Under the pieces are notes generated by a model that was not told where the DNA came from, searched no databases, and saw only the letters and a program-made list of their open reading frames with translations. From Micavibrio sp. UBA2020 (lineage in GTDB: Bacteria; Pseudomonadota; Alphaproteobacteria; Micavibrionales; UBA2020), in the NCBI GenBank assembly GCA_002334985.1, contig DDBY01000063.1:1-15096 (forward strand): 15,096 nucleotides of DNA. Reading direction: 5' to 3'. Position numbers and translations under genes: made by a program. Shown here piece by piece: positions 739-14,443 of the stretch (position 1 is the first letter of the stretch; each line of letters opens with the position of its first letter).

Positions 739-1296
739 ATGATTTTGTTTTTTCGCCTGATGGCGGGTGTATTTATCGCCGCATTGAGCGGCTTTAGCCT
801 TTACGCATTTTTTGAAATTCAAACCTTGCAAAAAAGTCTGCAAAGCCACTCACAGCAAATCGACGTTTTAAGTCAAAAAATGCTATCCGTCGAAACCCGC
901 ACCGAGCTGCTGGATGTGCGTAATGAGGAAGCCTACATCAAAACGAGTTTTGGAGGGATAGGACTCCAGTTCAACCTCGTAGGCGTAGATGCAATCTCTG
1001 AAAAAGGCCTCAGGATAGAAAGCGCCGTCAAAGACAAGCCCGCATGGCGTGCAGGCCTGCGTAGCGGTGACTTCATCTTGACAATTGATGAGCAAAATAC
1101 AGCAGGTATGAAAATCGGGGACGCCCTCAATAAAATGCGCGGACAAGCGGGGACCTTAGTGTCAATTACATATAAATCTCTGGCAAGCGAGGAGCCAAAG
1201 TCTGTAGCCATTGTAAGAGAAAACATAAAAATAAGAACGCTGCGCCCAAAAAAGAATGACGACAAAATTGACGCGCTATGGGAAATTGTGGAGTAG
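739..1296 (+). CDS. Membrane-anchored PDZ-domain protein
   Basis: The 185-residue product has one N-terminal hydrophobic helix (about residues 2-25) that should act as an uncleaved anchor. A Gln/Ser-rich helical, probably coiled-coil, segment follows (about 26-60), then a PDZ domain (about 70-150). The PDZ part resembles the one in CtpA/S41 processing proteases: it starts with FGGIGLQF, has the PAWRAGLRSGD carboxylate-loop region, and ends in a KMRGQAGTLVSITY strand. No serine-protease domain follows; the chain stops about 35 residues after the PDZ. It probably binds C-termini or presents substrates in the periplasm, but that is inference. GGAG about 6 bases before the ATG at 739 supports the start. 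It converges with the methyltransferase gene, with six bases between the stops. Confidence 0.8.
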   Translation: MILFFRLMAGVFIAALSGFSLYAFFEIQTLQKSLQSHSQQIDVLSQKMLSVETRTELLDVRNEEAYIKTSFGGIGLQFNLVGVDAISEKGLRIESAVKDKPAWRAGLRSGDFILTIDEQNTAGMKIGDALNKMRGQAGTLVSITYKSLASEEPKSVAIVRENIKIRTLRPKKNDDKIDALWEIVE

Positions 1297-1302
1297 CCGT
1301 CG

Positions 1303-2073
1303 TTACCCCATATCTATGGGAGCCCCATCGCTCAGCACCGCCTCGGCTTCCGGTGTGTACTGGCCGTTTTTCTGGTGGATGACCATGCCGGATTTTAGCT
1401 TGAGGGCGGCGTAGCGTTCTTTGCGTGCTTGCACGATGACGCGGCGGGCGTCTTCGCCGGCGTGGGGGTAGAGCGGATAGACAACGAAGCTGCCGAACCA
1501 CCGTTTTTTACCCAGCGCCATCAAAACATCATCCAGACGGTCGGCGCGGTGAATAACGGTCAGGTATCCACCATTTTTTAGTTTAGAATGTGCATATTTA
1601 GACCAGTTTTCTAAAGTAGCGCCTGAAGCGTCTTCGCCATGCGCAAAAGCCTTGATGCTACTGGGCGAGGGGGTATGCGTGCCGCCTTCTTGATAAGGTG
1701 GGTTCATAAGAACGGAGTTGAAATAATTGTTTTCAATTGCTTTTTCAGACAATAAAGAGCCCTGAAAAAACCGGCTGCGGCCTGCCACATCGTTCAAAAC
1801 AGCGTTTTGCAGCGCAAGGTCGGTCAATTCCCGCTGAATATCTATTCCAGTCAGATGTATATTTTTGTTTCTTGAAGCAACGCATAACCCTGCGGAGCCA
1901 ACGCCGCAGCCGACATCGAGCACTTGCCAGCGCTCTTTCACCGGCACGGCGGCAGCGAGGAACACGGTATCGAGCGAGGCATGAAACCCCACCTTCGGCT
2001 GCAAAAGCTTTACCCGCCCGCGCAGCAGCGTGGTCTCTATAACGGGTAATTCCTGCTCGGGTGTGCTGGTCAT
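1303..2073 (-). CDS. TrmN6-like SAM-dependent methyltransferase
   Basis: The 256-residue protein has the Rossmann SAM-binding motif DVGCGVGSAG (from residue 53), an acidic residue after the second strand (GIDIQ, about 76-80), and NPPY at 124-127. NPPY is the catalytic signature of N6-adenine or glutamine-amide methyltransferases. The N-terminal stretch before motif I (LLRGRVKLLQPKVGFHASLD) matches the form seen in tRNA1(Val) A37 N6-methyltransferases (TrmN6/YfiC family), so tRNA adenine methylation is the likely role. The exact substrate is inferred from family resemblance. The start ATG (2071-2073) overlaps the stop of the upstream DUF2007 gene as ATGA, indicating translational coupling. The pair is divergent from the polyprenyl synthase gene. 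Confidence 0.85.
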   Translation of the reverse strand: MTSTPEQELPVIETTLLRGRVKLLQPKVGFHASLDTVFLAAAVPVKERWQVLDVGCGVGSAGLCVASRNKNIHLTGIDIQRELTDLALQNAVLNDVAGRSRFFQGSLLSEKAIENNYFNSVLMNPPYQEGGTHTPSPSSIKAFAHGEDASGATLENWSKYAHSKLKNGGYLTVIHRADRLDDVLMALGKKRWFGSFVVYPLYPHAGEDARRVIVQARKERYAALKLKSGMVIHQKNGQYTPEAEAVLSDGAPIDMG

Positions 2074-2297
2074 GAACGGTACTCCGCTTCGCTCGGCTCC
2101 AGCCCTGCGTCGAACAGCAGGTCGTATGCCGCTTCGTAATCATTATCGTCGAGTAGCATAATACGGCAATCGGCAAAGCCGCCGAACAGGCCGGAGGTAT
2201 GCTCGTCGAAAACCACATACTCCATGGACGCACTCTGTAAAAGGGATTTTACAAATGCAATTTCGCCCATGTCGCTGGCCGTATAGATTTCTATCAT
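2070..2297 (-). CDS. DUF2007 family (putative signal-transducing) protein
   Basis: The small protein (75 residues from the ATG at 2297) has the layout of the DUF2007 domain. An N-terminal strand (MIEIYTASD) is followed by a helix (about 9-22), then EYVVFDEHTSGLFGG, a strand of RIMLLDDND, and a closing helix ending in LFDAGLEP. A TTG at 2315 would add six residues; I prefer the ATG because the family begins with this strand and an AGG lies at a usable distance. Its stop overlaps the methyltransferase start by four bases. The biochemical role of the family is not established. In many alphaproteobacteria this gene sits beside the methyltransferase and opposite a polyprenyl synthase (from memory). 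Confidence 0.8.
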   Translation of the reverse strand: MIEIYTASDMGEIAFVKSLLQSASMEYVVFDEHTSGLFGGFADCRIMLLDDNDYEAAYDLLFDAGLEPSEAEYRS

Positions 2298-2383
2298 CCG
2301 CTGCCTGCCGCCCAAAAATTCACTGATATCCGCCGCGAAATTTTGTTATAAGAGTGCAGTTTCAACCATGCCGGAAGACGGAC

Positions 2384-3415
2384 ATGACGCCTGCGCATAC
2401 CGCACATGATAATACGCCCGCCGCCGCCGCGACAACCGCAAACCCGCTGCAAAGGCTGGCCGACGCGCTGAAGCCGGATATGGCCGCGGTGAACGCGCTT
2501 ATCCTTGATCGTATGCAGTCCGACATTCCGCTTATCCCGCAGCTGGCCGGACATTTGATAGCGGGGGGCGGCAAACGTATCCGCCCGCTTTTGACGCTCG
2601 CCTCTGCCGCACTGTTCGACTACAAAGGCACGCGCCAATACAAACTGGCCGCCTGCGTCGAATTCATCCATACCGCCACGCTGCTGCATGATGACGTGGT
2701 GGACGAAAGCGACCAGCGCCGCGGCAAGGCTTCGGCTAATGCCGTTTTCGGCAACGAAGCGGCCGTACTGGTGGGTGATTTCCTGTTCAGCCGCTCGTTC
2801 CAGTTGATGGTGGAAGACGGCTCGCTCGAAGTTTTGCGCATCCTCTCGAACGCCTCCGCCGTGATTGCGGAGGGGGAGGTGCTGCAGCTCTCCACCGCCA
2901 ACAACATCGACACCACCGAAGCGGATTACATGAAAGTCATCGGTGCCAAAACGGCCGAGCTTTTCGCCGCTGCCTGCGAGGTTGGCGCCATCGTGGCCGA
3001 CCGCCCCGCCAGCGAATGTCAGGCGCTGCGCGACTACGGCATGTACCTCGGCCTTGCGTTCCAGATTTCGGATGACGTGCTGGATTACGCCGCCTCCGAA
3101 GAGCGCCTTGGCAAATCCATCGGCGATGATTTCAAAGAAGGCAAGATGACCCTGCCTGTGCTCAAAGCCATGGCCAAATCGAGCGCGGCGGAAAAACAAT
3201 TCTGGCAGCGCACGATGTGCGACCTCGACCAGAAAGACGGCGACCTTGCCGAAGCGCAGGCGCTGATTAAAAAGCACAAGGGGCTCGAGCTTTCCCTCGC
3301 GCAGGCGCGGGATTTTGCAGCCAAGGGGCGCAAATGCCTTGAAAACCTGCCCGGCAACGGCATCCGCCGTGATTTGGCCGAACTCATTGATTTTGCAGTA
3401 GAACGGGATTACTAA
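2384..3415 (+). CDS. ispB: Octaprenyl-type (long-chain) polyprenyl diphosphate synthase
   Basis: This trans-prenyltransferase adds isopentenyl diphosphate units to an allylic primer to make the all-trans side chain of ubiquinone. From the chosen ATG the protein is 343 residues, normal for the family. Visible motifs are GGGKRIRP (61-68, IPP binding), the first aspartate-rich motif DDVVD (103-107), GAKTAELF (187-194), QISDDVLDY with the second aspartate-rich motif (230-234), and GDDFKEGKMTLP (247-258). A GTG at 2354 would add ten residues, but GGAAG ahead of the ATG at 2384 marks the better start. The first ~20 residues are low-complexity Ala/Thr. The chain length (C40 versus C45/C50) cannot be read from the sequence. 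It stands alone on its strand, upstream of tRNA-Pro. Confidence 0.92.
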   Translation: MTPAHTAHDNTPAAAATTANPLQRLADALKPDMAAVNALILDRMQSDIPLIPQLAGHLIAGGGKRIRPLLTLASAALFDYKGTRQYKLAACVEFIHTATLLHDDVVDESDQRRGKASANAVFGNEAAVLVGDFLFSRSFQLMVEDGSLEVLRILSNASAVIAEGEVLQLSTANNIDTTEADYMKVIGAKTAELFAAACEVGAIVADRPASECQALRDYGMYLGLAFQISDDVLDYAASEERLGKSIGDDFKEGKMTLPVLKAMAKSSAAEKQFWQRTMCDLDQKDGDLAEAQALIKKHKGLELSLAQARDFAAKGRKCLENLPGNGIRRDLAELIDFAVERDY

Positions 3416-3477
3416 CCCCGCAAAATTCCCGCAAATACCCCTTGCACCGCGCGGGGGAATATGCGACATAACTGCTC

Positions 3478-3483
3478 TATAAC
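3478..3483 (+). promoter_or_regulatory. Possible -10 element for tRNA-Pro
   Basis: TATAAC matches the -10 consensus at five of six positions and ends 15 bases before the first base of the tRNA, a normal distance for a stable-RNA promoter. No good -35 hexamer lies at the expected spacing, so the call is weak. Read-through from the polyprenyl synthase gene is the alternative. Confidence 0.3.
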
Positions 3484-3498
3484 TTGTTCCCGCCGCGT

Positions 3499-3575
3499 CG
3501 GAGTGTAGCTCAGCCTGGTAGAGTGCTTGCTTCGGGAGCAAGAGGCCCGGGGTTCGAATCCCCGCACTCCGACCA
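3499..3575 (+). tRNA. tRNA-Pro (anticodon CGG)
   Basis: A complete cloverleaf is visible. The acceptor stem is CGGAGTG (3499-3505) with CACTCCG (3565-3571), discriminator A3572 and an encoded CCA (3573-3575). The D arm is GCTC/GAGT with one G-U pair and the AGCCTGGTA loop. The anticodon stem CTTGC/GCAAG encloses TTCGGGA, giving anticodon CGG at 3533-3535, which reads CCG. The variable loop is AGGCC. The T arm is CGGGG/CCCCG around TTCGAAT. The C1-G72 pair with A73 is characteristic of bacterial proline tRNAs. The AT-rich unknown genes begin immediately beyond its 3' end. Confidence 0.97.
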
Positions 3576-3592
3576 TTTTTGCAGATAAATAG

Positions 3593-4033
3593 TTAATCAG
3601 GCTTATTAGGTATGTCGCCCTCTATAGAGCTGGGGACGATTACTTCTTCAGGCTCTTTCGAAGCGCCCAGTTGTTTTTGCTCAACCTTGTAATCTTTAGC
3701 CATTGAATAAGATAACTGAGCAGATTGGGCTGCTTTATTGTCTATTATAGAGTTAATAATAGGGGGGAGACCCGCAATAGCAACAACCGTCAATACTACT
3801 GTGGTGACTAATACAAAAGTACTTGGGAGCTGTTTCGTTCTCTCATCAAGCCTTATCAATAAACCTTGTAAATCAGCAAGGACACTTTTTACGGCTTGTA
3901 AATCTGTTTCAACTTTTATTAGTCTAGCTAACATATCTTCACCGTCGCCGCCTCCACTAGAAGTAGAAAACACACGCGGTTCCTCGGAGCGTGTATGTAC
4001 AGGGAACTGAAGAAGTTTTTTATCTTCACTCAC
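3593..4033 (-). CDS. Unknown coiled-coil protein with one membrane segment
   Basis: The 146-residue protein starts at a GTG (4031-4033), five bases after the upstream gene's stop. The layout is clear though the family is not. There is a polar N-terminus with a Ser/Gly linker (about 1-31), an amphipathic, probably coiled-coil helix (about 34-68), one hydrophobic membrane helix (about 71-95), and a polar, acidic C-terminal tail ending in Pro-rich residues. A short coiled coil followed by a membrane helix resembles phage XhlA-type or other small membrane-anchoring proteins, but I see no specific signature and do not assign that. With the gene at 4039-4341 it forms a likely two-gene operon. An internal ATG around residue 34 is a less attractive alternative start. 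Confidence 0.6.
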   Translation of the reverse strand: MSEDKKLLQFPVHTRSEEPRVFSTSSGGGDGEDMLARLIKVETDLQAVKSVLADLQGLLIRLDERTKQLPSTFVLVTTVVLTVVAIAGLPPIINSIIDNKAAQSAQLSYSMAKDYKVEQKQLGASKEPEEVIVPSSIEGDIPNKPD

Positions 4034-4038
4034 CGCGC

Positions 4039-4341
4039 TTAATTCTCTTTATTTTTTGAATGGATTTCTATCGGCAGGGATTTCTTAATCTCATCAAGGG
4101 TATCAACAAAAGAGATAAAAGAAGCAATTGGGATACATAATCTTTTGACAATGTGTCGACTAACTTTTTCCGTTGTGGGGTCGTATTTGTCTTCGTGTAA
4201 ATTAATACGAACAATTCCATTATTCATGCTGACGCCTTGAAACCCGTCAATAAATAAACTTTCTATTGGCTCGATTAGAATAATATCAGGATTATTATTC
4301 TCTTTTTCTTTGATTTCTATTTTCTTCTTTTCTTCAGCCAT
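4039..4341 (-). CDS. Unknown 100-aa soluble protein
   Basis: The ATG at 4341 is preceded by a strong Shine-Dalgarno (GGGAGAGG, five bases away), so I use it in preference to an ATG 45 bases further upstream that has no such signal. The protein begins with a highly charged Lys/Glu segment (residues 1-16). A compact region follows: a strand-like ILIEPIESLF, a GFQGVSMNNGIVRINL block (33-48), and a helix rich in Ile/Phe (about 66-88). The alternating strand-then-helix pattern is loosely like small DUF3467-type proteins; this is an impression, not an assignment. It is the first gene of the AT-rich pair and probably co-transcribed with the membrane protein after it. Confidence 0.62.
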   Translation of the reverse strand: MAEEKKKIEIKEKENNNPDIILIEPIESLFIDGFQGVSMNNGIVRINLHEDKYDPTTEKVSRHIVKRLCIPIASFISFVDTLDEIKKSLPIEIHSKNKEN

Positions 4342-4474
4342 TTTTGCCTCTCCCGAGAACAACGAAAACAATAAGAATTCTAACATTAATTAGTTAAAAA
4401 ATGAGCGTTCTTTTAACCCGTCCCCCATCACGTTTATCGCCTCTTAAAAAGTAATCTTTTGATATTAAAGGCTT

Positions 4475-5428
4475 TTAATAGTTCGTAGCATCCAAAACCT
4501 TCACATCCTCCGCCGTCAGTTTGACCTCTGCCGCTGCCATTAAATCTTCCAGCTGTGCAATCGTGGTTGCGCTGGCGATGGGGGCGGTGATGGCGGGGCG
4601 TTGCATCAGCCATGCGAGGGCGATGCGCGCGGCGTTACTGTTATGCGCGGATGCGATGCTGTCGAGCGCGTCCAGAATGCGAAAACCGCGCGGGTTGAAA
4701 TAGACTTCTGCCACGCGTGCGCCGCGCACCGATTTGCCAAGGTCGGCTTCGCTGCGATACTTGCCGCTGAGGAAACCACGGGCGAGGGAGTAGTAGCTGA
4801 TAACCCCTACGTTTTCCTTCACGCAAAGCGGCATCAATTCCGCCTCGAACCCTGCGCGGTCATAAAGGTTATATTCGGGCTGCAAGCTGCAATACCTCGG
4901 CAGCCCCGCATCCTTCGCCGTTTGCAGCGAGAGGGCGAGGCGCTCCGCTGTAAAATTCGATGCGCCAATCGCGCGGACTTTTCCCTGTTCAATCAATTTT
5001 TGATAGGCGCGCAGCGTTTCATCCGGCGCCACGCTCAAATCATCTTTATGCGACTGGTACAGGTCGATGTAATCGGTTTGCAGACGCTTGAGACTTTCAT
5101 CGACCGAGCGCAGGATATGCGCGGCCGACAATCCTTTTTTCTCCGGCGTCATTTCATGGCCGACTTTGCTGGCCAGAACCACCTTGTCCCGCTTGCCGGA
5201 TTTTTTGAACCACGCGCCGATGATAGTTTCGGACTCGCCGCCATTGTTGTCCGGCCCGCCCCATGTCGAATAGACATCTGCCGTATCCACAAAATTGAAC
5301 CCGCGTTCGACAAAGGCGTCGAGCAGGGGGAAGGACTGCGCTTCGTCAATCGTCCAGCCAAAAACATTTCCGCCGAAACATAGCGGCGCCACCATCAAAC
5401 CGGAATCGCCCAGCGTGCGTTTTTGCAT
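4475..5428 (-). CDS. Aldo/keto reductase
   Basis: The 317-residue protein is a full-length NADPH-dependent aldo/keto reductase with a TIM-barrel fold. The catalytic tetrad is in place: Asp48 and Tyr53 in DTADVY, Lys88 in ASKVG, and His127 in YQSHKDD. GASNF (155-159) and the C-terminal LAWLMQRP segment (about 272-279) also fit, as does the LQPEYNLYDR substrate-side loop. It belongs to the group containing general stress/YajO- or YghZ-like reductases acting on small aldehydes and ketones; the substrate cannot be read from sequence. GGGAG about seven bases before the ATG at 5428 supports the start. It is divergent from the nicotianamine-synthase operon and shares its 240-base intergenic region, but the Fur-like box lies about 160 bases from its start codon, so joint control is doubtful. 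Confidence 0.9.
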   Translation of the reverse strand: MQKRTLGDSGLMVAPLCFGGNVFGWTIDEAQSFPLLDAFVERGFNFVDTADVYSTWGGPDNNGGESETIIGAWFKKSGKRDKVVLASKVGHEMTPEKKGLSAAHILRSVDESLKRLQTDYIDLYQSHKDDLSVAPDETLRAYQKLIEQGKVRAIGASNFTAERLALSLQTAKDAGLPRYCSLQPEYNLYDRAGFEAELMPLCVKENVGVISYYSLARGFLSGKYRSEADLGKSVRGARVAEVYFNPRGFRILDALDSIASAHNSNAARIALAWLMQRPAITAPIASATTIAQLEDLMAAAEVKLTAEDVKVLDATNY

Positions 5429-5552
5429 GTCCTATCTCCCTGTTTTTAAAAAACTTATGCTCTATTACCTAGCGCAGCAGACGGCGGCGGGCAAGATGCA
5501 ATTCGTACCTGCCAAGGCCTATATATTTGATAAATAATGCTTATTTTCTAAT

Positions 5553-5580
5553 TTGACAAAGTTATAGCCGGGTGTATATT
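5553..5580 (+). promoter_or_regulatory. Sigma70-type promoter of the metallophore-like operon
   Basis: A perfect -35 TTGACA (5553-5558) is followed after 16 bases by TATATT (5575-5580, five of six matches). The predicted start of transcription, near 5587, falls at the edge of the palindrome at 5586-5606. The DNA just upstream is very AT-rich and contains an AAATAA/TTATTT inverted repeat (5532-5537 with 5541-5546), which could be an UP-like element. The leader before the first gene would be about 80 bases. Confidence 0.75.
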
Positions 5581-5585
5581 TCTGC

Positions 5586-5606
5586 GAATGAGAATGATTT
5601 GCATTC
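5586..5606 (+). promoter_or_regulatory. Fur-like operator (imperfect 21-bp palindrome)
   Basis: GAATG at 5586-5590 mirrors CATTC at 5602-5606, and AAT (5593-5595) mirrors ATT (5597-5599) around G5596. Against the 7-1-7 Fur consensus (TGATAAT-n-ATTATCA), the stretch 5589-5603 matches at 11 of 14 half-site positions; against the 19-bp Fur box it matches at 13 of 19. It overlaps the predicted start of transcription, a position suited to repression. A Fur-family regulator for iron is the simplest reading; Zur, Mur or Irr cannot be excluded. Confidence 0.65.
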
Positions 5607-5668
5607 ACAGCAAAAACGAATTATAAAAAATATACCCCAGCGGACAAACGAGGGAAAGCAGGTCACCA

Positions 5669-6487
5669 ATGCCGACAAACATGCTCAAGCAAGAAGCCAT
5701 CAACGCCATCCGCGCCAGCTATCAGCTGCTGCGCACCGAGAAAAATCTCTCGCCCATGAACCACCGCGTGACGGATTCCCTGACGCATCTGGTGCGCACC
5801 CTGACGCGTTGCCAGTCGCCGGAACTGGCGAAGTTTTTGCTGGATGCGCCGGAGCTGGCGGTCGAGCGTGAAAACCTGCCCGTGCTTTGCGGCATCGCGG
5901 AGTGCGAGATGGAAAAATTCTGGGCGAAACATCTGATTGGCCGCCCCGTCTGCGACCTCGCCGAATTCTGGTACTTCCCTGAATATACCGAACTGTGTCA
6001 GGCAGAACTTGACCTGTTCAAAACCCGCAAGTTTGACCGCATCAGCTTTCTGGGGGCAGGGGCTTTGCCGCTCACGGCCTTCCTGCTGGCGCGCCATTGC
6101 CCGCAATCGAAAGTCATCTGCGTCGATTTCGACGAAGAAGCCTGCGCACTGGCCGAACAGCTCAGCCGCAAAATCGGCCTGAAAGAGCAAGTCAGCGTCG
6201 AGCGTATGGACGCGCTGCAATACATGCCCGGCGAAAACGAACTGGTTATCTGCGCAAGTCTGCTGCAGGGTCGCGAACAGGTTTACAAAAACCTGCAAAG
6301 CCACAACTGCGCGCTTCTGGTGCGCGACGCAGAAGGGCCGTATCAATATCTGTACAAAGCGGCCGAACTGCCCGCCGTGACGTCTTTCCGCGAAATCGCG
6401 AAAACGCAGGTAGATGCACGCCGCATCAACACCAGCCGCTATTTCGAGCGCGCCGCCGAATGGATGGAGAACGCGCGTGCCGCATAA
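5669..6487 (+). CDS. Nicotianamine synthase-like / CntL-like aminobutyrate transferase
   Basis: The 272-residue protein has the two-part build of nicotianamine synthases. A helical N-terminal domain (about 1-118) includes LPVLCGIAECEMEKF (70-84) and FWYFPEYTELCQAELDLF (100-117), which parallels the plant motif around FPYYxNYxxL. A Rossmann domain follows, with FLGAGALPLT (127-136, cf. GSGPLPLT), VDFDEEACALAEQL (152-165), ERMDA (178-182) and INTSRYFE (253-260). Glu80 and Tyr106 sit where the archaeal enzyme is recalled to have its catalytic Glu and Tyr. Such enzymes transfer the aminobutyrate group of S-adenosylmethionine to an amine or amino acid in metallophore synthesis; the length matches bacterial CntL. 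It is the first gene after the Fur-like promoter and overlaps the next by 11 bases. Substrate and number of transfers are unknown. Confidence 0.82.
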   Translation: MPTNMLKQEAINAIRASYQLLRTEKNLSPMNHRVTDSLTHLVRTLTRCQSPELAKFLLDAPELAVERENLPVLCGIAECEMEKFWAKHLIGRPVCDLAEFWYFPEYTELCQAELDLFKTRKFDRISFLGAGALPLTAFLLARHCPQSKVICVDFDEEACALAEQLSRKIGLKEQVSVERMDALQYMPGENELVICASLLQGREQVYKNLQSHNCALLVRDAEGPYQYLYKAAELPAVTSFREIAKTQVDARRINTSRYFERAAEWMENARAA

Positions 6488-7913
6488 GCATACACATCAC
6501 GACATCGACGCTGCGGGTGACGCAACGGTCAAACTGGCGCGTGAACTGGTAAAAATCCCCAGCATCACCGCCGTGAATCCGGCCGACAAGCCGGCTTCCG
6601 CCTGCAGTATCGATGCCATTGCCGATTATGCCGCCAAATCAGGCGCGCGGGTTGAGCGCAGCGAATACAGCGGCGGTCATCACAAATGGGATTACCCCGT
6701 CGAAAACGTTTATCTGGAATGGACATTCGGCAGTGATAAATCCGGCAATGATAACGGCCAGCCTGCCAAGCATATTTGCTACATCGGGCATCTCGACGTC
6801 GTGCCCGTGGGCGACGAAGCGAAATGGACGACCAAGCCTTTCGATGGTGAAGTGAAAGACGGTTATCTCTATGGCCGCGGCGTGACGGATATGAAAGGCA
6901 GCGTCGCCGCCTTCATCACCGCCGTAGAAGACGCCATGAAAGATTTGAAAGCGCAGGGCAACGTACGCGTGAGCATGATTTTGACCACCGACGAAGAATG
7001 GGCGGCCGTCAACGGCACGCGCAAGGTTCTGGAGTGGCTGAAAAAAGAGGGGCAGGCGCCTGACGCCTTTATCGTGGGCGAGCCCAGCTCGCAGGATGAC
7101 CTCGGCTCCCACATCAAAATCGGCCGCCGTGGCAGCCTTGTCGGCACGTTCAACGTTGCGGGCGTGCAGGGGCATGCCGCCTATCAGGAGCTTTTCGAAA
7201 ACCCGAACCGCGCGCTGGCGCTGGCGGTGTCTATCTTGTCGTCCAAGGAATGGAAAGACGGCAACGAAAACTTCCCCAATACCAATTTCGAAACCGTTGC
7301 GCTGAAATCCGGCGATTTCGGCGCCAGCGCGGTTATTCCGGGCAAGGCAGAAGCGCTTTGGAACATCCGCTTCACACCGTCGCAAACGCCGGACAGTCTT
7401 GAGGCGTGGATTAAAGACGCGCTCGCCAATCCGCCCGAATGGGCAAAGGCGCATCCGGACGCGGACAAGCTGAAAAACATCACGGTTGTCGCCAACAAAG
7501 ACACCGCATCGCAACCCTATTACAGCCAGCCCGCAGGACTTGCCAAATCCGCGCAAGATGCCGTGCAGACCGTGCTGGGTACGCCTGCGAAGCTTGATGG
7601 CAGCGGCGGCACCACCGACGGCCGCTTCGTATCGAACTATTTCCCCGATGCGGAAATCATCGAGCTTGGCCTGCCGGAGCGCGGCGGCATTGCCTGCAAG
7701 CACCACAAGCCTGATGATTATCTGGCCAAGGGCGGCATGCATCAGGTGGACGAACGCGCGGCGGTTGCCGACCTTGTCAACCTGCGTCATATTTTCAAAC
7801 AGACTCTGGTGAATTACGCGGCCGCAAATGACGACAAGCCGGCGGCGGAGAAGGGGGCTGATACCCATGCAAACGCAAAACAACGTCATTCTGCGCCCCG
7901 TCACGGAAACTGA
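6477..7913 (+). CDS. M20-family metallopeptidase, DapE-like
   Basis: The frame opens at a GTG (6477) with GGAG seven bases upstream, inside the last codons of the preceding gene, and gives 478 residues. The di-zinc site is intact: GHLDVVP with His105 and Asp107, YGRGVTDMKG with bridging Asp138, TDEEW with Glu173/Glu174, GEPSS with Glu202, and MHQVDE with His422 near the end. The dimerisation-domain motif QGHAAYQELFENPNRA (231-246) is DapE-like. DapE hydrolyses N-succinyl-L,L-diaminopimelate; relatives remove other N-acyl groups. It is about 100 residues longer than a usual DapE, with an insertion before the zinc-site His (about 66-98), an extended segment before MHQVDE (about 400-420), and a polar C-terminal tail (450-478). 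Overlap on both sides ties it to the operon. Housekeeping DapE is possible; a pathway-specific acylase is my inference. Confidence 0.85.
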   Translation: MPHKHTHHDIDAAGDATVKLARELVKIPSITAVNPADKPASACSIDAIADYAAKSGARVERSEYSGGHHKWDYPVENVYLEWTFGSDKSGNDNGQPAKHICYIGHLDVVPVGDEAKWTTKPFDGEVKDGYLYGRGVTDMKGSVAAFITAVEDAMKDLKAQGNVRVSMILTTDEEWAAVNGTRKVLEWLKKEGQAPDAFIVGEPSSQDDLGSHIKIGRRGSLVGTFNVAGVQGHAAYQELFENPNRALALAVSILSSKEWKDGNENFPNTNFETVALKSGDFGASAVIPGKAEALWNIRFTPSQTPDSLEAWIKDALANPPEWAKAHPDADKLKNITVVANKDTASQPYYSQPAGLAKSAQDAVQTVLGTPAKLDGSGGTTDGRFVSNYFPDAEIIELGLPERGGIACKHHKPDDYLAKGGMHQVDERAAVADLVNLRHIFKQTLVNYAAANDDKPAAEKGADTHANAKQRHSAPRHGN

Positions 7914-8364
7914 CGCGGAACAGCTGCGCGCGCTTTACCGTTTTTCACTTCAGAAAAATGCGGAAGGCTTTGTGCAGAATCCGGATTTCCACGGCGATAT
8001 TCACGCGCGCGCCAGCGATTACCAAAATAATAACGGCACGATGCTCGGCCTGTTTGCCGATGACGACCGCACGCTTTTCGGCTTCGGCGGGTTGAAGCAA
8101 AAAGAAAACAACCGCGTAGAGCTTTGCAACCTGCATGTGCATCCGCACCAGCACGGCAAAGGATACGGCAAGCATATCGCGCTGACGCTTATCGACGATG
8201 CGCGCGAGCTTGGCTATGACACGCTCGAGCTGCATGTCACGGCGACGCAAAGCGCCGCCATAGGGCTTTACCGCAAACTTGGTTTTTCAGAAACGGGACG
8301 TCAGGTTTATTCCGTCGAAGGCGGCAATTATGATACGATTTTCATGGAACTGTCCCTGACATAA
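7867..8364 (+). CDS. GNAT-family N-acetyltransferase
   Basis: From the ATG at 7867 the protein is 165 residues, the normal length for a single-domain GNAT. The fold's order is visible: strand NVILRPVTETD (6-16), helices, strand LFGFGGLKQ, motif A with ELCNLHVHP (85-93) leading into the acetyl-CoA pyrophosphate loop HQHGKGYGKH (94-103), then motif B with ELHVTATQSAAIGLYRKLGF (121-140). A G-rich Shine-Dalgarno precedes this ATG; an upstream ATG at 7828 would add an Arg-rich leader and is less likely. It overlaps the M20 gene by 47 bases, so the three genes are one translation-coupled operon. The acyl acceptor is unknown; a small amine or amino acid made or used by the operon is a reasonable inference. 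Confidence 0.85.
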   Translation: MQTQNNVILRPVTETDAEQLRALYRFSLQKNAEGFVQNPDFHGDIHARASDYQNNNGTMLGLFADDDRTLFGFGGLKQKENNRVELCNLHVHPHQHGKGYGKHIALTLIDDARELGYDTLELHVTATQSAAIGLYRKLGFSETGRQVYSVEGGNYDTIFMELSLT

Positions 8365-8407
8365 AAGCCCCGCGGAATCCGGCGGAGCCCATTGAAAGCG
8401 CCGCGCC

Positions 8408-9058
8408 ATGGAATTCCTGCAAAAAATTGCCGACAAGATTCAATCCATGAACAAAACCCGCGACCCGTCGGAATTCAACGACGAGATTGCGATGCGTACC
8501 GAATGGGAATCTTTCAACAAAGGCAGCAGCAATTTCAATACCCACAGGCTGACAGAAGAAACCGGATACGGCCTGCGCTATAAACCGACCAAGAGTTTGT
8601 ATTTTCTTTGCGGCATGTTTATGGCGCTGGGCGGCGGCACGGCCATTGCCACGGTTGCATCTGCGCTAAATCAAGGCAAAGACATCAATCGGGATGTGAT
8701 TTATCCGGCTTTATTCGGGCTTGTGTTTTTCGCTATCGGTTATGGCCTGTTTATCGGGCTGCGGCGTCCGGTGTTTTTTGACCAGACGGAGCGCTGCATG
8801 GTTATCAAGGACGCCAGGACATATTTCAGCGATATTCACGCGCTTCAGCTGGTTGTGCAACGTGGCGGCAAGCACAGGAACTATCAATTGAATCTGGTGC
8901 TGCGCGATACGGCGCGAGTCTATGTCATGAACTATGCCGATAGCCGCACGGCCAGAGCGGACGCCGCGCGCGTTGCGCAAGTTATCGGTCTTGCATCAAA
9001 CCGGATATGGGATGCCATGCCGGGCTATGATGTGCAGATACCGCATGGCAGTTTTTAA
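8408..9058 (+). CDS. Unknown membrane protein with two helices and a C-terminal soluble domain
   Basis: The 216-residue protein has a polar N-terminus (1-62), two hydrophobic helices (about 64-86 and 97-118) forming a hairpin, and a C-terminal cytoplasmic-type domain (about 121-205). Alternating strands there (PVFFDQTERCMVI, LQLVV, YQLNLVLRD, VYVMNYAD) followed by a helix of ADAARVAQVIG give the look of a small PH-like beta domain. I do not recognise a named family. It begins 43 bases after the GNAT stop on the same strand with no clear terminator between, so it could belong to the metallophore-like operon. Its Shine-Dalgarno is weak and it does not resemble any known metallophore exporter. 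Confidence 0.68.
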   Translation: MEFLQKIADKIQSMNKTRDPSEFNDEIAMRTEWESFNKGSSNFNTHRLTEETGYGLRYKPTKSLYFLCGMFMALGGGTAIATVASALNQGKDINRDVIYPALFGLVFFAIGYGLFIGLRRPVFFDQTERCMVIKDARTYFSDIHALQLVVQRGGKHRNYQLNLVLRDTARVYVMNYADSRTARADAARVAQVIGLASNRIWDAMPGYDVQIPHGSF

Positions 9059-9073
9059 ACGCCTGGATTCCTG

Positions 9074-9159
9074 CGGCTTCGGCCGTTATAAAGATACCTG
9101 TTGTGATGCGTCTATTAATTTCCATAATATACATTATCACATCATTAGATAGATACGCA
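9074..9159. other. Hairpin-rich intergenic DNA between convergent genes
   Basis: A CGGC/GCCG stem closed by a TTCG tetraloop (9074-9085) lies 15 bases after the stop at 9058; it could end transcription but has no T run. Further on, TGCGT-CTAT-TAAT (9107-9119) pairs with 9144-9159, with two small bulges, enclosing ATAAT/ATTAT (9124-9128 with 9133-9137). The long hairpin would form in RNA from either strand and lies where the two convergent transcripts meet. Its role as a bidirectional terminator or stabiliser is inferred only. Confidence 0.35.
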
Positions 9160-9214
9160 GCAGGGGAAAACCGGCCTTAGCCGCAACCTTCTTACGCAAG
9201 CCCTCTCGCTTCTT

Positions 9215-10225
9215 TTACGCAGGATGCGCAGCTGGCGCATAAGCCGCGCTGCGGCACATGGCCCAGTTTATCAACCCGCAAATGCCGAGCGTCAGCGCCG
9301 CCGTAGCCGCGACCCTTGGCGACATTGGTATCACGGCCAGCGTGCTGACGAATTCGATGGCAATCAGGCCTATCAGCACGTTCGCTATCGTCCGGCGTGA
9401 CAGCACCGAACACAAATAAGCCCCGACCGGTGCCCCCACGACCACCACAGGCACAGCGGCCAGCCAATACCCTTGCACCGTGGGCGTAAAGGTATCCAGC
9501 ACCATGCCGTGCAGCGCAAAGCCAACCAGTGTATTTGACGTCATCAACAGAACGGTTGTCGGCGTTGCGACTTTTTCATCAAGGCGGAATAGCAGAACCA
9601 TGGTCATGAATGTGATGATATCAATGCCGCTGCCGACAAGCCCGCTCATGATGCCACCGATGAATCCGGTAAACATCAGAATGCAGATTTCCTTCCTGCC
9701 GACGAAAGGCAAAGCGCTATGGCGCTGTATTTTTTCGCTGCGGTTCATGAAAATCAGCGCAATCGCCAAGCTGGAAACCATAATGGTAAAAGCGATTTTC
9801 ACCAGCGGCGGCGATACCAGCGGCAAAACGTAAAACGTGCTGCACAGCAAACCGAAAATACCGCCAAGCCCCGGCCAGAGCACCGCACGCCATTCCACGC
9901 GCACGCGCAGAAAGATAATACCGATGGACGCCGCTGTCATGCCTATGCTTTGTATCGCCAGAGCAAAAACGCGTGCTTCGTGCGGCGGAATCCCGAGCAC
10001 TTTTGTGAATACCGGAAACGCAACCGCACCGCCGCCTTCGCTTGTGGCGCCTGCGACCAGCGAGCCGAAAATCATCGTCACTGTAATCTGCCAGTTGTCT
10101 ATCACGCTTTGCACGGCATGCGCCCCGCCAAACCCGTACCAGCAAACCCAGACCAAAACGGCCAGCGCGAGGTTTACCTTCAATGCGCGTTTGTATTGAA
10201 CGTTGGCGTCAATCGACACAACCAT
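9215..10225 (-). CDS. TauE/SafE (TSUP) family permease
   Basis: The 336-residue protein is almost entirely hydrophobic, with about eight to nine predicted membrane helices arranged as two similar halves. Each half begins with the family's Gly-rich turn: GATSEGGGAVAFPVF in the first (about 58-72) and GGIMSGLVGSGIDIITF in the second. A short charged loop in the middle (around NRSEKIQRH) separates them. TSUP proteins move sulfur-containing anions such as sulfite, sulfoacetate or taurine-derived products, or other organic anions; the substrate here is unknown. The ATG at 10225 has AGGG about nine bases upstream. It is monocistronic, divergent from mazG with a promoter in the shared region. Proximity to the metallophore-like operon does not show a link, since it is on the other strand. 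Confidence 0.88.
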   Translation of the reverse strand: MVVSIDANVQYKRALKVNLALAVLVWVCWYGFGGAHAVQSVIDNWQITVTMIFGSLVAGATSEGGGAVAFPVFTKVLGIPPHEARVFALAIQSIGMTAASIGIIFLRVRVEWRAVLWPGLGGIFGLLCSTFYVLPLVSPPLVKIAFTIMVSSLAIALIFMNRSEKIQRHSALPFVGRKEICILMFTGFIGGIMSGLVGSGIDIITFMTMVLLFRLDEKVATPTTVLLMTSNTLVGFALHGMVLDTFTPTVQGYWLAAVPVVVVGAPVGAYLCSVLSRRTIANVLIGLIAIEFVSTLAVIPMSPRVAATAALTLGICGLINWAMCRSAAYAPAAHPA

Positions 10226-10272
10226 GGAGACACACCCTTATTTTTTGATTTTTTTGCTTATACCGCTGTGGA

Positions 10273-10302
10273 ATTATTAACAAATATGTAAAATATTGAC
10301 AA
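10273..10302 (-). promoter_or_regulatory. Predicted promoter of the TauE/SafE permease gene
   Basis: On the minus strand TTGTCA (10302-10297, five of six) is followed after 18 bases by AATAAT (10278-10273, five of six). Transcription would start about 40 bases before the permease start codon. The region is AT-rich and otherwise empty. Confidence 0.5.
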
Positions 10303-10309
10303 GGCTTTT

Positions 10310-10338
10310 TTCGCAAAAAACCGCATCCATGCTATAAA
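10310..10338 (+). promoter_or_regulatory. Predicted promoter of mazG
   Basis: TTCGCA (10310-10315, four of six) and TATAAA (10333-10338, five of six) are separated by 17 bases. The predicted start leaves a short leader ending in AGGAGA just before the mazG ATG. A perfect TTGACA at 10296-10301 has no -10 at a usable distance on this strand. Confidence 0.5.
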
Positions 10339-10364
10339 TCCGCCAGAAAAACAGGAGAAATGCC

Positions 10365-11231
10365 ATGTCCACCCCCACACAGCCTCAGAAAAAGCGTCAG
10401 GTCACCACGGCGGAGCGCCCCATAGACCGCCTTTTGGACATCATGGCCTACCTGCGCACCCATGCCGAGGGCTGCCCGTGGACGAAAGAACAAACGCACC
10501 AGTCGCTGGTGCCGTACCTGATTGAAGAGTCTTACGAAACTGCCGACATGATTGACCAAGGCCAGATTGACGGCCAGCTGCGCGACGAACTGGGCGATGT
10601 TCTTTTGCAAATCGCCTTTCATGCTGAAATCGCGCGCGAGCGTGGCGGCTTCACCTTCGACGATGTCGCGCAAGCAATCGTCGATAAGCTGGAACGCCGT
10701 TATCCGACCATCCTCGGCGACGAGCCGAATACGCTGACCACGCCCGAGGAAATCGACCGCCGCTGGGAAGAAATAAAAGCGGAAGAGCGTGCGCGCAAAG
10801 GCATAAAAAAAGACGCCAGCATACTTGATGAAATATCGACAGGACTGCCCGCCCTGCTCCGCTCCGCCAAGCTGAAGGGCCGTGCGGCCAAAGCCGGATG
10901 GGAATGGCCGAACGTCGATATGCTGCTGGACAAAATTTCAGAAGAAGTTGGCGAACTGAAAGAAGAAATTCACGCCGAAAAGCCGGACATGGAACGTGTC
11001 ATGGCCGAATTCGGCGATTTGATGTTCATGATGGTCGATTTCGCGCGCTATCACGGTTTCGATGCCGAAGACGCGCTGCGCATCACCAACAGCCGCTTTG
11101 AAAAACGCTTCCGCCACATGGAACAATTTCTGAAACAAAAAGGCCATGCAGACATCAAATCCGCCCCGCGCGAAGACCGTCTGGCCGGCTGGAATGACGC
11201 CAAAGCTGTTGAAAAAGCGGCGAAAAAATAA
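10365..11231 (+). CDS. mazG: Nucleoside triphosphate pyrophosphohydrolase MazG
   Basis: The 288-residue protein has two tandem MazG domains, as in full-length MazG. The first carries GCPWTKEQTHQSL (36-48), IEESYE (53-58) and DELGD (74-78). The second carries SEEVGELKEE (192-201) and EFGDLMF (215-221), ending in NSRFEKRF. The acidic residues are the Mg-binding positions of the all-alpha NTP pyrophosphatase fold. The enzyme hydrolyses NTPs and dNTPs to the monophosphate and pyrophosphate, cleaning the pool of non-canonical nucleotides. AGGAG seven bases before the ATG decides the start. A Lys/Ala tail and a ~15-residue N-terminal leader extend slightly beyond the core. An all-AT hairpin (11225-11232 with 11237-11244) straddles the stop and is too weak to call a terminator. 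Confidence 0.95.
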   Translation: MSTPTQPQKKRQVTTAERPIDRLLDIMAYLRTHAEGCPWTKEQTHQSLVPYLIEESYETADMIDQGQIDGQLRDELGDVLLQIAFHAEIARERGGFTFDDVAQAIVDKLERRYPTILGDEPNTLTTPEEIDRRWEEIKAEERARKGIKKDASILDEISTGLPALLRSAKLKGRAAKAGWEWPNVDMLLDKISEEVGELKEEIHAEKPDMERVMAEFGDLMFMMVDFARYHGFDAEDALRITNSRFEKRFRHMEQFLKQKGHADIKSAPREDRLAGWNDAKAVEKAAKK

Positions 11232-11248
11232 AGCCTTTTATTTTCATA

Positions 11249-11278
11249 TTGCAATCGTTATTGTAGCGGCCATGTAAT
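11249..11278 (+). promoter_or_regulatory. Predicted promoter of the 143-aa gene
   Basis: TTGCAA (11249-11254, four of six) is followed after 18 bases by TGTAAT (11273-11278, five of six). It is placed about 30 bases before the Shine-Dalgarno of the next gene. Co-transcription with mazG is also possible, because no firm terminator intervenes. Confidence 0.4.
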
Positions 11279-11315
11279 AACAGCGCTGTTTTCGCGCGCT
11301 ACAGGAGAGATTTTC

Positions 11316-11747
11316 ATGGCCACCTATGATGAATACGGCCCCAGCCGCAGCGATATTCGCGCTGCTTTCGATAAGGCCGCCGCCGAAAAATCGCGCGGCT
11401 ATCTGACGATTATCGAACAAGTTCTGGAAGACAAATACGCCATCACTTCATTTTCAACTATGCGCGTCCTCGACCACCCGTGCGAAATTGTGCCGCTGCT
11501 GCGCGAAGAAGATGCACGCGCATCTTACGCGACGCACCGCCTGTCGCATGTACTGGACTTGAAAAAGGATTTTGATGCGCAAATGGCGCTTTGGGGTAAA
11601 TCGCTCGATGCCGTCCTTCCCGCATTTGTGGTCAAAGACCTTGCCGAATATCAGGCGGATAAAGATTTTGCGCGCAAACAGGCCGAATGGCAAAGCCAGC
11701 CTTGGCTGACGCGCATGATGACTACGCCGCCGATGCGCAAAAAATAA
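11316..11747 (+). CDS. Hypothetical 143-aa protein
   Basis: A strong Shine-Dalgarno (AGGAGA) before the ATG at 11316 and codon use like the neighbours support a real gene. The product is soluble, largely helical and charged, with no membrane segment or signal peptide. Possible landmarks are an N-terminal amphipathic helix (about 11-25), a short strand/turn region with DHPCEIVPLLREEDA (53-67), one His-rich turn (ATHRLSHVL, about 72-80), and a basic C-terminus with two Trp residues (WQSQPWLTRMM). I do not recognise the family. It lies between mazG and a small membrane-protein gene, 16 bases ahead of the latter, so the two are probably expressed together. Confidence 0.62.
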   Translation: MATYDEYGPSRSDIRAAFDKAAAEKSRGYLTIIEQVLEDKYAITSFSTMRVLDHPCEIVPLLREEDARASYATHRLSHVLDLKKDFDAQMALWGKSLDAVLPAFVVKDLAEYQADKDFARKQAEWQSQPWLTRMMTTPPMRKK

Positions 11748-11763
11748 TATCGCGATTCATAAA

Positions 11764-12222
11764 ATGAAAATCATCGAACGCCTTGCTAAAAAATACGACC
11801 CGTCCCTCACCGGCGCTATCGGTATGATTGGCGGAATGGTTGTTATGGGCGCTGCGGTGGCTGCACCTGTGGCTGCGGCAATCGGTGGTGCAGGCATGGC
11901 CGCGCTGTCGGGTGTTTCCGCCCTCGCAGGCGCGCTCTGGGCCGGCGGAATCGTCGCGGGCGGCGCGGCGGCCATTGTCGGCTGGATTGCCATTCCGCAA
12001 ATGGTTTGCGCGCTGTGCTACAAGCACCTATTGAAAAAACATGTCGCGCATGGCGGCACGACAAACGGCATGAAATGGGTGCCTGGAATCGAAAACATGC
12101 GCGCTGGAACTAACCTTGCGCAAAAACGCGGCCTTTCAGGCATTTTCGCGCGGGGCAAGAAAAGCGCACGAAAAAAGCCGCCGCAAAATCAGCCTAAACC
12201 GCCGGAACCGCCCAAGCCCTGA
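11764..12222 (+). CDS. Gly/Ala-rich membrane protein with basic, Pro-rich tail
   Basis: The 152-residue protein has a short basic N-terminus and two to three Gly/Ala-rich hydrophobic stretches (about 15-46, 47-62 and 63-80) with many small residues, which favour close helix packing. A cytoplasmic-type basic region follows (about 86-135), ending in a run of Lys/Arg and then Pro/Lys/Gln repeats (PQNQPKPPEPPKP). I do not recognise a family; Gly-zipper helices of this kind occur in small pore- or scaffold-like membrane proteins, but nothing here proves that. The start follows the previous stop by 16 bases and has no strong Shine-Dalgarno. It converges with the inositol-monophosphatase-family gene, with five bases between stops. 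Confidence 0.6.
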   Translation: MKIIERLAKKYDPSLTGAIGMIGGMVVMGAAVAAPVAAAIGGAGMAALSGVSALAGALWAGGIVAGGAAAIVGWIAIPQMVCALCYKHLLKKHVAHGGTTNGMKWVPGIENMRAGTNLAQKRGLSGIFARGKKSARKKPPQNQPKPPEPPKP

Positions 12223-12227
12223 TTGTT

Positions 12228-13043
12228 TCAGGCGGCCTTCACCAAACGCGGATACAAAACATCTTCCAGCATTTTCCAGCGGGCTTCGTCCGGCGCTGCA
12301 ATCAGCATGCAATGGCGCAGCATATCGGGCGCGAAGGGAATATTTTCATGCGCAAGGCGGACGTACCCGCCCGCTTCTTGCGCCAGCAAAACGGTGGCAG
12401 AGTGGTCCCAAGGCGTAACTTTGTTGATATGCACAACAAAATCGGCATCGCCGGCAGCAAGACTGAGGAAATCATGCAAAGAGCTGCGCACATTGATAAG
12501 CCCTTTGATATGTCCGTTGATAGATTCAAAATGCCATGCTTGACCGCCGCCGCCCATGCCTGTCATTTCCGCAGGCGTCTGTGCGCTTTGGCGCACCTGC
12601 GCAGGTTTACCGTTGATAGTGGCGCCTTTGCCCTTGATGGCAATCGCCATACGTTCTTGCGGCGCGTCGTAAACCCAGCCGTACTGCGTCACGCCATTTT
12701 GCACAAGCGCAACCAGAATGCCAAAATGACTGCGCCCATGGGCAAAATTATAAGTGCCATCAATCGGGTCGATGACCCAGATGGGGTTTTCGGATTTAAA
12801 GCGCTCCAGCACCGTTTCGTCTTTTGAAACCGCCTCTTCGCCAACAACAATAGAGCCGGGCAGATAGGCCATCAGCGCCGCGCTGAGAGCTTTTTCCGAA
12901 GCTTCATCCGCAATGGTCACGAAATCACCGGGATTTTTCTCCCGCACTTCGCCATCGGCAAGGTTTTTAAAACGGGGCATGACTTCGGTGGCCGCGACTG
13001 CGCGCAGAATGTCCGCCACTTTTTCAACATCGATATCAATCAC
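12228..13043 (-). CDS. Inositol monophosphatase family phosphatase
   Basis: The 271-residue protein has all metal-binding motifs of the Mg-dependent, lithium-sensitive phosphatase superfamily: Asp46 in TIADEAS, Glu69 in GEEAV, WVIDPIDGTYNF with Asp92 and Asp95 (89-100), and TPWDHSATVLLAQEAGG with Asp213 (210-226). Substrates in the family include inositol-1-phosphate, 3'-phosphoadenosine phosphates and histidinol phosphate; sequence alone does not separate these here, so no symbol is given. It starts at a GTG whose first base pair set overlaps the HflX stop (GTGA), with AGGA about eight bases upstream inside hflX, so it is translationally coupled to hflX. That coupling makes it the last gene of the hfq-hflX transcription unit. 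Confidence 0.88.
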   Translation of the reverse strand: MIDIDVEKVADILRAVAATEVMPRFKNLADGEVREKNPGDFVTIADEASEKALSAALMAYLPGSIVVGEEAVSKDETVLERFKSENPIWVIDPIDGTYNFAHGRSHFGILVALVQNGVTQYGWVYDAPQERMAIAIKGKGATINGKPAQVRQSAQTPAEMTGMGGGGQAWHFESINGHIKGLINVRSSLHDFLSLAAGDADFVVHINKVTPWDHSATVLLAQEAGGYVRLAHENIPFAPDMLRHCMLIAAPDEARWKMLEDVLYPRLVKAA

Positions 13044-14443
13044 GTCGCGCTTCCTTTTTTCTTTACGGTTGTTTTCTTGGTTGCCGTCTTTTTCTTCGGC
13101 TTGGTCGCCGCTGCTTTTTTCGCCTTTTTCGCCTTCTGCGCGGCGCTGAATTTATATCCGAATTTATCGGTAAAACGCGCAACGTCTTCCGGGTCAAGAC
13201 GCACAGAAATTATCGCCGTTTCATCGCCGTCTTCGCGCGCGGTAACCTCGCCGCGGGCATAAAGCCATGCCATAGCCTTACCGTCCGTCAGCGGGATGTC
13301 GGCCTGCAGCGTCATACGGTCTTTGCCAAGACGCGCACCAATCAGCGACAACAACCGCTCAATCCCCTCGCCCGTCAGCGCGGATACGGCGGCCAGATTG
13401 TCCTGCGACTGGCTGCGCGCGGTGGCATAATTTCGGTCTTCGGCCGGCAGGTTGTCGATTTTGTTCATCACTTCGATGACACGCGCATCGTCCGCGGCGA
13501 TACCGAGGTCTTTGAGAATATTCAGCACATCCTCTTTCTCCGCCTCGGTATTCTCCTGCGAAATGTCGCGCACATGCAAAATGACGGCGGCTTCCTGCAC
13601 TTCTTCCAGCGTCGCACGGAAGGCGGCGACAAGATGGGTGGGCAGGTCGGAAATGAAACCGACGGTATCGGACAAAATCGCCTTTTGCCCTGTCGGCAAT
13701 TCTATGCCGCGCATGGTGGTGTCCAGTGTTGCGAACAAGAGGTCTTTGGCAAAAACCTCCGCCCCCGTGATGCGGTTGAACAGCGTCGATTTACCTGCGT
13801 TGGTGTAGCCCACCAGCGCGACAATCGGATACGGTTCTTTCTTGCGCGATTCACGTTGCAGGCGGCGGTTTTTCTTGACCAGTTCCAAATCAACTTTCAA
13901 GCGTTTGATTTTTTCGTCCAGCATACGGCGGTCGAGTTCTTTTTGCGTCTCGCCGGGGCCGCCGGTTTTGCCAAGGCCGCCACGCTGGCGTTCAAGGTGG
14001 CTCCACGCCTTGACAAGGCGTGAACGTTGATAAGACAGCGCGGCCAGTTCGACCTGCAAAATACCTTCTTTGGTGCGGGCGCGGGCGCCGAAAATCTCTA
14101 GGATAAGTCCGGTGCGGTCGATGACTTTGCAGGATAGCTCCTGCTCCAGGTTACGCTGCTGCACGGGCGTGACGGCGGCATCAACATAGACAAGCCCCAC
14201 CTCGGCTTCTTTTGCCATGGAGGCGATACGCTGCACCACACCGCCGCCAATCAGCGTTGCGGGTTTTATCTGCTTCACCACAACGACTTCGGCGTGAATA
14301 ACTTCAAGGTCGATGGCGCGCGCAAGGCCGATGGCTTCTTCAAGCGCAACATCGGGTGCGCGCACATGGGTGCGTTGCCCGCCTTCTTCCGCACGCGCAG
14401 AGGGCGGCAGGTCGGGATGCAGTACGATGATTTTTTCAGTCAT
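13040..14443 (-). CDS. hflX: Ribosome-associated GTPase HflX
   Basis: The 467-residue protein shows the HflX order. An N-terminal nucleotide-binding-like domain (about 1-130) is followed by a long helical linker with the family signature GGPGETQ (161-167), then an Obg-type GTPase domain. The latter has Walker A GYTNAGKS (212-219), a switch I Thr region, DTVGF (259-263), NKID (327-330) and SAL (354-356). HflX splits stalled or heat-damaged 70S ribosomes in a nucleotide-dependent way. The C-terminal domain (about 375-435) is followed by an unusual ~30-residue tail of Lys/Ala/Thr (437-465) that probably contacts rRNA (inference). It lies 44 bases after hfq, as in many proteobacteria, and its stop overlaps the phosphatase start. 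Confidence 0.95.
   Translation of the reverse strand: MTEKIIVLHPDLPPSARAEEGGQRTHVRAPDVALEEAIGLARAIDLEVIHAEVVVVKQIKPATLIGGGVVQRIASMAKEAEVGLVYVDAAVTPVQQRNLEQELSCKVIDRTGLILEIFGARARTKEGILQVELAALSYQRSRLVKAWSHLERQRGGLGKTGGPGETQKELDRRMLDEKIKRLKVDLELVKKNRRLQRESRKKEPYPIVALVGYTNAGKSTLFNRITGAEVFAKDLLFATLDTTMRGIELPTGQKAILSDTVGFISDLPTHLVAAFRATLEEVQEAAVILHVRDISQENTEAEKEDVLNILKDLGIAADDARVIEVMNKIDNLPAEDRNYATARSQSQDNLAAVSALTGEGIERLLSLIGARLGKDRMTLQADIPLTDGKAMAWLYARGEVTAREDGDETAIISVRLDPEDVARFTDKFGYKFSAAQKAKKAKKAAATKPKKKTATKKTTVKKKGSAT

Follow-up and report, generated by a model that had tools for sequence, protein, structure and literature searches.

A nicotianamine synthase-family gene paired with an M20 hydrolase behind a predicted Fur-type box in Micavibrio sp. 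UBA2020: a candidate CntM-independent route to a nicotianamine-like chelator

In the literature examined here, bacterial nicotianamine-type metallophores have been described through zinc-linked gene clusters that contain CntM (available part of PMC7438024). These opine-type clusters (staphylopine, pseudopaline, yersinopine and bacillopaline; CntKLM) hold an aminobutyrate transferase of the nicotianamine synthase (NAS) family in a metal-related setting, and some of them carry acetyltransferases as accessory genes (same part of PMC7438024). We have analysed a 15,096-nucleotide stretch of DNA from Micavibrio sp. UBA2020 (contig DDBY01000063.1, positions 1 to 15,096, forward strand; hereafter the window), in which a NAS-family gene likewise lies in a metal-related cluster and is followed by genes for an M20 metallohydrolase and a GNAT N-acyltransferase. 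Unlike in the opine-type clusters, no opine dehydrogenase was found among the Pfam-scanned genes of the locus and its relatives, as a preliminary description of this DNA had said of the window itself. Furthermore, the NAS protein is not a CntL equivalog, the usual partner is the M20 hydrolase, and where the opine-type clusters have a link to zinc this system has a Fur-type box and the iron permease FTR1.

Three other described systems resemble parts of this locus. The archaeal enzyme MtNAS makes thermonicotianamine; dedicated M20 and GNAT partners and Fur-type control are what we see here, with the locus of MtNAS itself lying outside the comparison. The plant pathway to nicotianamine and mugineic acid shares the NAS enzyme, and one of its enzymes, deoxymugineic acid synthase, belongs to the aldo/keto reductases, for which there is a gene next door here. 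However, the operon showed no aminotransferase gene, and any action of the reductase on the product would be hypothetical. Finally, the M20 protein is like DapE and ArgE in fold, metal ligands, catalytic Glu and succinyl-side pocket, but has lost Asn245, has an insertion N-terminal to the last metal ligand and is tied to NAS. A survey of opine-like zincophores took CntM as its starting point and points out that it would overlook compounds made without CntM (PMC7438024, in the part available). Among the literature matches listed by description, which are a fraction of a much larger number and leave subscription journals mostly uncovered, none was described as dealing with a NAS-M20 cluster. The system is likely, although not proven, to be new to print.

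We favour, with somewhat better than even confidence, the reading that this operon encodes an iron-repressed pathway that makes a nicotianamine-like chelator independently of CntM; the M20 enzyme would deacylate the acceptor or product of NAS, and the GNAT enzyme would acylate. The combination of a NAS-type enzyme, a repurposed deacylase and an acetyltransferase suggests that a metal-binding molecule is probably made by an undescribed route. A recurring and apparently iron-controlled NAS-M20 cluster that lacks CntM would broaden the chemical range of this group of metallophores, and a function would be gained for an M20 subfamily of at least 120 clusters whose named entries are called DapE. 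The features of the locus are as follows.

5553..5580, + strand: sigma-70-type promoter, TTGACA-16-TATATT, 11/12 matches, the best-matching of 5 sites
5586..5606, + strand: Fur-type palindrome GAATGAGAATGATTTGCATTC, starting 6 nt past the -10 hexamer
5669..6487, + strand: NAS-family enzyme, 272 aa (Pfam, alignment)
6477..7913, + strand: M20 metallohydrolase, DapE paralogue, 478 aa, GTG start (Pfam, alignment)
7864..8364, + strand: GNAT N-acyltransferase, 166 aa (Pfam Acetyltransf_1, 64.9 bits against a cut-off of 20.7)
4475..5428, - strand: aldo/keto reductase, a possible fourth component in the window's family (PF00248, 241.8 bits)

The strong promoter, the Fur-like palindrome at its start site and the three overlapping genes named in the preliminary description were all recovered, with the reading frames as it gave them. 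The likely M20 start, GTG 6477, lies within the end of NAS, whose stop codon is at 6485-6487, giving an 11-nt overlap, and this start is consistent with those in relatives; the M20 stop is in turn overlapped by the GNAT gene, which begins at ATG 7864, by 50 nt. The host draft genome comprises 2.35 Mb in 243 contigs, and the relatives in the named collection (G numbers below) are mostly metagenome-assembled Alphaproteobacteria.

From the observed protein families, catalytic residues, gene linkage and conserved box we infer substrates, an order of steps, a product and its possible secretion. Iron-loaded Fur would switch the operon off. NAS would then, as its family and catalytic residues suggest, move at least one 3-amino-3-carboxypropyl group from S-adenosylmethionine to the amine of an amino-acid acceptor, and the M20 protein, by class a di-metal hydrolase, would hydrolyse an amide on the acceptor or on the product of NAS. 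The GNAT enzyme might add an acyl group, either protecting one amine before NAS acts or capping the product. Judging from relatives that co-encode FTR1 and a cupredoxin or MntP, the chelator would serve the supply of iron, perhaps of manganese. No opine dehydrogenase would be used.

By its sequence, the first gene product is a true member of PF03059 (78.7 bits against a Pfam cut-off of 27.1), and its nearest fold match is the archaeal MtNAS. A CntL-type identity was ruled out by the NF033601 equivalog model (25.7 against a cut-off of 350), so that of the earlier label 'NAS/CntL-like' the first half stands and the second does not. We aligned 36 NAS and 34 M20 rows, hand-picked for spread. The counterparts of the catalytic residues E77 and Y106 of AtNAS1, E82 and Y106, are invariant in 36/36 NAS rows. 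HMMER mapped E81 of MtNAS to position 80, which is Glu in 32/36, and the CntL alignment points to position 82. In a tree of 32 NAS rows, those from NAS-M20 loci of the window's family formed one group; G191 and G338 were long branches whose placement is unsure.

NAS genes were also seen in other company. A cultivated bacterium, Dichotomicrobium thermohalophilum, carries a NAS belonging to this wider group (P0302). In two genomes from another family of the order (L044 and L041, in G047 and G049), a gene of the Glu/Leu/Phe/Val-dehydrogenase type follows NAS and could encode a different partner enzyme. Two NAS-family matches stand in tandem or near tandem at L046 (G042), L101 (G358), L104 (G205) and L107 (G324), and the two NAS-like genes of G042 flank a gene for a Cys/Met PLP enzyme. 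At L056 (G095), a gene of the SCO1/SenC copper-chaperone type is found three genes 3' of NAS. A plasmid search for NAS returned two records, the Halocatena marina plasmids NZ_CP109980.1 and NZ_CP110250.1, whose annotation assigns a gene to the nicotianamine synthase family.

The pairing of NAS with M20 recurs across genomes. The window's family holds 18 genomes, 11 of them with NAS, and the M20 gene follows NAS in 10 of these 11. GNAT comes third in six of the ten NAS-M20 loci (G000, G137, G138, G139, G123 and G126); because of this count GNAT is an accessory component. The three-gene order proposed earlier is conserved in relatives, and the first protein falls inside the NAS family, so that neither of the two refuting conditions named in the preliminary description held. 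Across the order, NAS was found in 27/142 genomes and an M20 of the window's type (E <= 1e-70) in 13/138, and all 13 also carry NAS. In a sample of the class, NAS was present in 14/385 genomes (11 above the Pfam cut-off) and the window-type M20 in 3/385 (the window's own genome, G191 and G320), adjoining NAS in all three. On one strand, G320 has MntP followed by NAS (43%), M20 (55%) and GNAT (45%). In G191, M20 (53%) is divergent from a NAS that is just 25% identical to that of the window. The NAS of G338 scores 177 bits against the Pfam model, and M20, GNAT and M20 lie on the facing strand; these M20 proteins are only 30-32% identical to the window's and fall below the DapE cut-off. The adjacency of NAS and the window-type M20 recurs in two unrelated families, once with a very different NAS. 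Because one hydrolase subfamily adjoins two very unlike NAS proteins, the gene arrangement argues for a functional tie rather than chance.

Other comparisons bear on the same pairing. In the protein database, 21 lengths of the longest contig were common to the NAS and M20 matches listed, which suggests, but does not prove, that they share a contig; the comparison covered 93/182 listed NAS and 102/120 listed M20 clusters, the rest, mostly short contigs, having been omitted by hand. One such pair (P0120/P0190) is named as gammaproteobacterial. Hypergeometric values for co-occurrence were 3e-11 in the order, with the samples of 142 and 138 genomes merged as one, and 0.001 in the class without the window's own genome; both ignore kinship and serve as a guide only. 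Nothing was gained from relatives of G320 and G191, whose orders hold 6 and 1 genomes, and a plasmid search for the M20 protein gave no match.

Expression of the operon is predicted to respond to iron. The promoter at 5553-5580 is the best of 5 sites in the region 5400-8700, in which shuffled sequences gave a mean of 1.9 sites (sd 1.4). The 7-1-7 core TGANAATNATTNTCA of the Fur consensus occurs once in the window with at most one mismatch, at 5589-5603; the shuffle mean was 0.04, and 8/200 shuffles had one. A 7-1-7 box of the kind sought in Fur-regulated promoters is therefore present in sequence over this promoter. Furthermore, the 12-mer TGAGAATGATTT lies 5' of the first operon gene in 10/10 NAS-M20 loci of the family, within 300 nt in nine of them and at -82 in G138, where 209 nt upstream are readable. 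Because this 12-mer was used to find the box, the columns that it covers match by construction. In six less-alike genomes, identity in the free columns on either side was 68% (5 on the left) and 78% (7 on the right), compared with 30-35% in the outer flanks. In G123 and G126, where cupredoxin and FTR1 genes come ahead of NAS, the box stands before the cupredoxin gene and not before NAS. Since the box is conserved in the family and moves ahead of cupredoxin/FTR1, Fur control has good support as a conserved feature of the window's family; binding is predicted, and the support does not extend to other families.

A wider Fur regulon was sought with the pattern TGANAATNATTNNCA and rejected as weak. 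The host genome has 5 distinct sites, against 0 for a backwards-pattern control, and among them only the NAS site combines a clear promoter with a neighbouring gene of metal type.

The second gene encodes an M20 protein (Peptidase_M20, 113.3 bits against a cut-off of 24.6; M20_dimer, 66.7 against 21) whose fold aligns with complete DapE chains at TMt 0.72-0.91. It falls below the cut-off of the proteobacterial DapE model TIGR01246 (273.9 against 361.8) and passes that of NF009557 (335.1 against 284). The host genome contains 6 PF01546 matches, among them a canonical DapE (L048:3748-4914) that is above both cut-offs (521.1 and 436.9 bits), by which the idea that the operon M20 is the only DapE of the genome was ruled out. 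The M20 protein is thus DapE-like in sequence and fold and is not the housekeeping enzyme.

The di-metal ligands and catalytic Glu (H67, D100, E134, E135, E163 and H349) are kept in 34/34 rows, as are R178, S181, H194, Y197, R258 and G324; T325 is kept in 33/34. According to the part of PMC11270798 available, R178, Y197 and G324 of DapE hold the succinyl part that the substrate of ArgE lacks, S181, N244 and S290 bind the additional carboxyl group of diaminopimelate, and N245 from the other subunit contacts the ligand in both DapE and ArgE. The position of Asn245 is Ala in the window's M20 (codon 7329-7331) and A in 28, S in 5 and G in 1 of the 34 rows; Asn occurs in none. Among 120 listed homologues the 244/245 pair reads [ST]A in 107 and [ST]S or SG in 6, with the 7 outside the signature pattern left unclassified for Asn245. 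In addition, an insertion, LG..E.GG...MHQ.DE, is found in 106/120 homologues before the last metal ligand, at a spacing of 0 to 36 and usually about 15 residues; in the window it precedes the His encoded at 7740-7742. As the succinyl-side residues are kept and Asn245 is lost, the pocket seems to resemble that of DapE on its acyl side and to be changed on the opposite side. For the same reasons (the succinyl-chain residues retained, the partner-subunit Asn that touches the ligand gone), the most likely role predicted for the M20 enzyme is to act on an N-substituted amino acid of larger size and to release from it a group of the succinyl type, or an acetyl group.

In the database set P0121-P0240, the entries of this M20 subfamily that have names read succinyl-diaminopimelate desuccinylase, and 113/120 are without Asn245 by pattern, with 7 unclassified.

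Several observations weigh against the chelator reading. G129 has NAS without a window-type M20 (an ABC transporter gene follows NAS there, at L070), M20 is apart from NAS in three of the 13 genomes of the order that carry it (G003, G004 and G005), and 11 of the 14 NAS-positive genomes of the class sample are without a window-type M20. GNAT does not follow M20 in G124, G125, G127 and G128; it does so directly in G003 and G005, and the G004 contig stops at that point. Searches detected no Fur-type box 5' of NAS in G320, G191 or G338 (best 11, 11 and 12 of 19), 5' of MntP in G320 (best 9 of 19) or 5' of M20 in G003 and G005 (best 11). Within the host genome, the other perfect matches to the loose form of the box adjoin no obvious iron genes, which leaves Fur binding without independent support. 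In the pocket, S290 of DapE lies outside the mapped positions, and N244, another DapE contact, is Ser/Thr in 34/34 rows; this position is not diagnostic, because it is Glu in the canonical DapE of the same genome. The operon contains no exporter or receptor gene, unlinked genes having stayed outside the search, so that the product may or may not be secreted. Finally, product, substrates and expression are predictions from sequence.

Transport genes are also central to the alternative that comes closest, a possible but clearly less probable one, namely that the chelator is an intracellular metal buffer, kept inside the cell to deliver iron or manganese to sites there, and that M20 recycles or degrades it. 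The earlier statement that the system has no dedicated transporter applies to the window's operon, where neither an exporter nor an importer was found among the operon genes, and does not extend to relatives, as cupredoxin and FTR1 genes lie in the same operon in G123 and G126 and MntP does so in G320. FTR1 is of an inner-membrane importer type and MntP a putative manganese efflux pump, and together with the lack of an exporter or outer-membrane receptor in the operon they fit a buffer. Similarly, M20-GNAT in G005 is preceded by OEP, HlyD, RND pump, ECF sigma factor, unknown and Metal_resist genes, of which the RND, ECF-sigma and Metal_resist genes, like FTR1 and MntP, point to metal balance. 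However, control of the iron-starvation type fits acquisition equally well, and unlinked TonB receptors and exporters were not searched for.

It is also conceivable, at slightly longer odds, that M20 prepares the acceptor for NAS by releasing an unusual amino acid from a precursor that is N-acylated or a peptide, and that GNAT acts on the product or detoxifies an intermediate. The close fold matches of M20 include DapE, ArgE, carnosinase and carboxypeptidase types alike, and NAS-like enzymes use varied starter amino acids (PMC10248798, in the part available). Nevertheless, nothing gives the order of the steps, and the retained succinyl-side residues fit an acyl group better than a peptide.

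A more specific form of the chelator reading, which we regard as unlikely, is that NAS acts on N-succinyl-LL-diaminopimelate, the normal substrate of DapE, and that the DapE paralogue then removes the succinyl group to leave a diaminopimelate-based chelator. With one amine blocked by succinyl, the aminobutyrate group would be directed to the second amine; the loss of Asn245 would have widened the M20 pocket. If this were true, a precursor of the cell wall would be diverted, when iron is scarce, into a nicotianamine-like hexadentate chelator, and NAS metallophores would have a third biosynthetic route in addition to those of plants and of the opine type. Least probable of all is that M20 is a mere second, iron-regulated DapE for lysine and diaminopimelate synthesis with an incidental link to NAS, for which the database names and the NF009557 score speak, and against which stand the failed TIGR01246 model, the missing Asn245, the canonical DapE elsewhere in the genome and the restriction of M20, in the genomes searched, to those with NAS (3/3 in the class sample and 13/13 in the order).

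Returning to the proposed CntM-independent route, the PF10100 model for CntM matched 0/138 genomes of the order, but a control set was equally silent, so that absence genome-wide is unproven. The aldo/keto reductase gene, divergent from NAS across the Fur-type box, may be part of the system in the window's family, as its distribution suggests. A match 64-100% identical was present in 10/10 of the NAS-M20 genomes of the family (the host included) and adjoins the operon in 9/10, with operon and reductase on separate contigs in G138. In the 8 other genomes of the family the best match was 42%, and 3 have none at E <= 1e-30. Of G191, G320 and G338, which lie outside the family, only the first has a match (50%), and it is on a different contig.

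Directly 3' of GNAT, at 8408-9058 on the + strand, the window encodes a 216-aa protein that matches no Pfam family above its cut-off; among the 27 loci compared, its one non-self match was in G138, at 60%.

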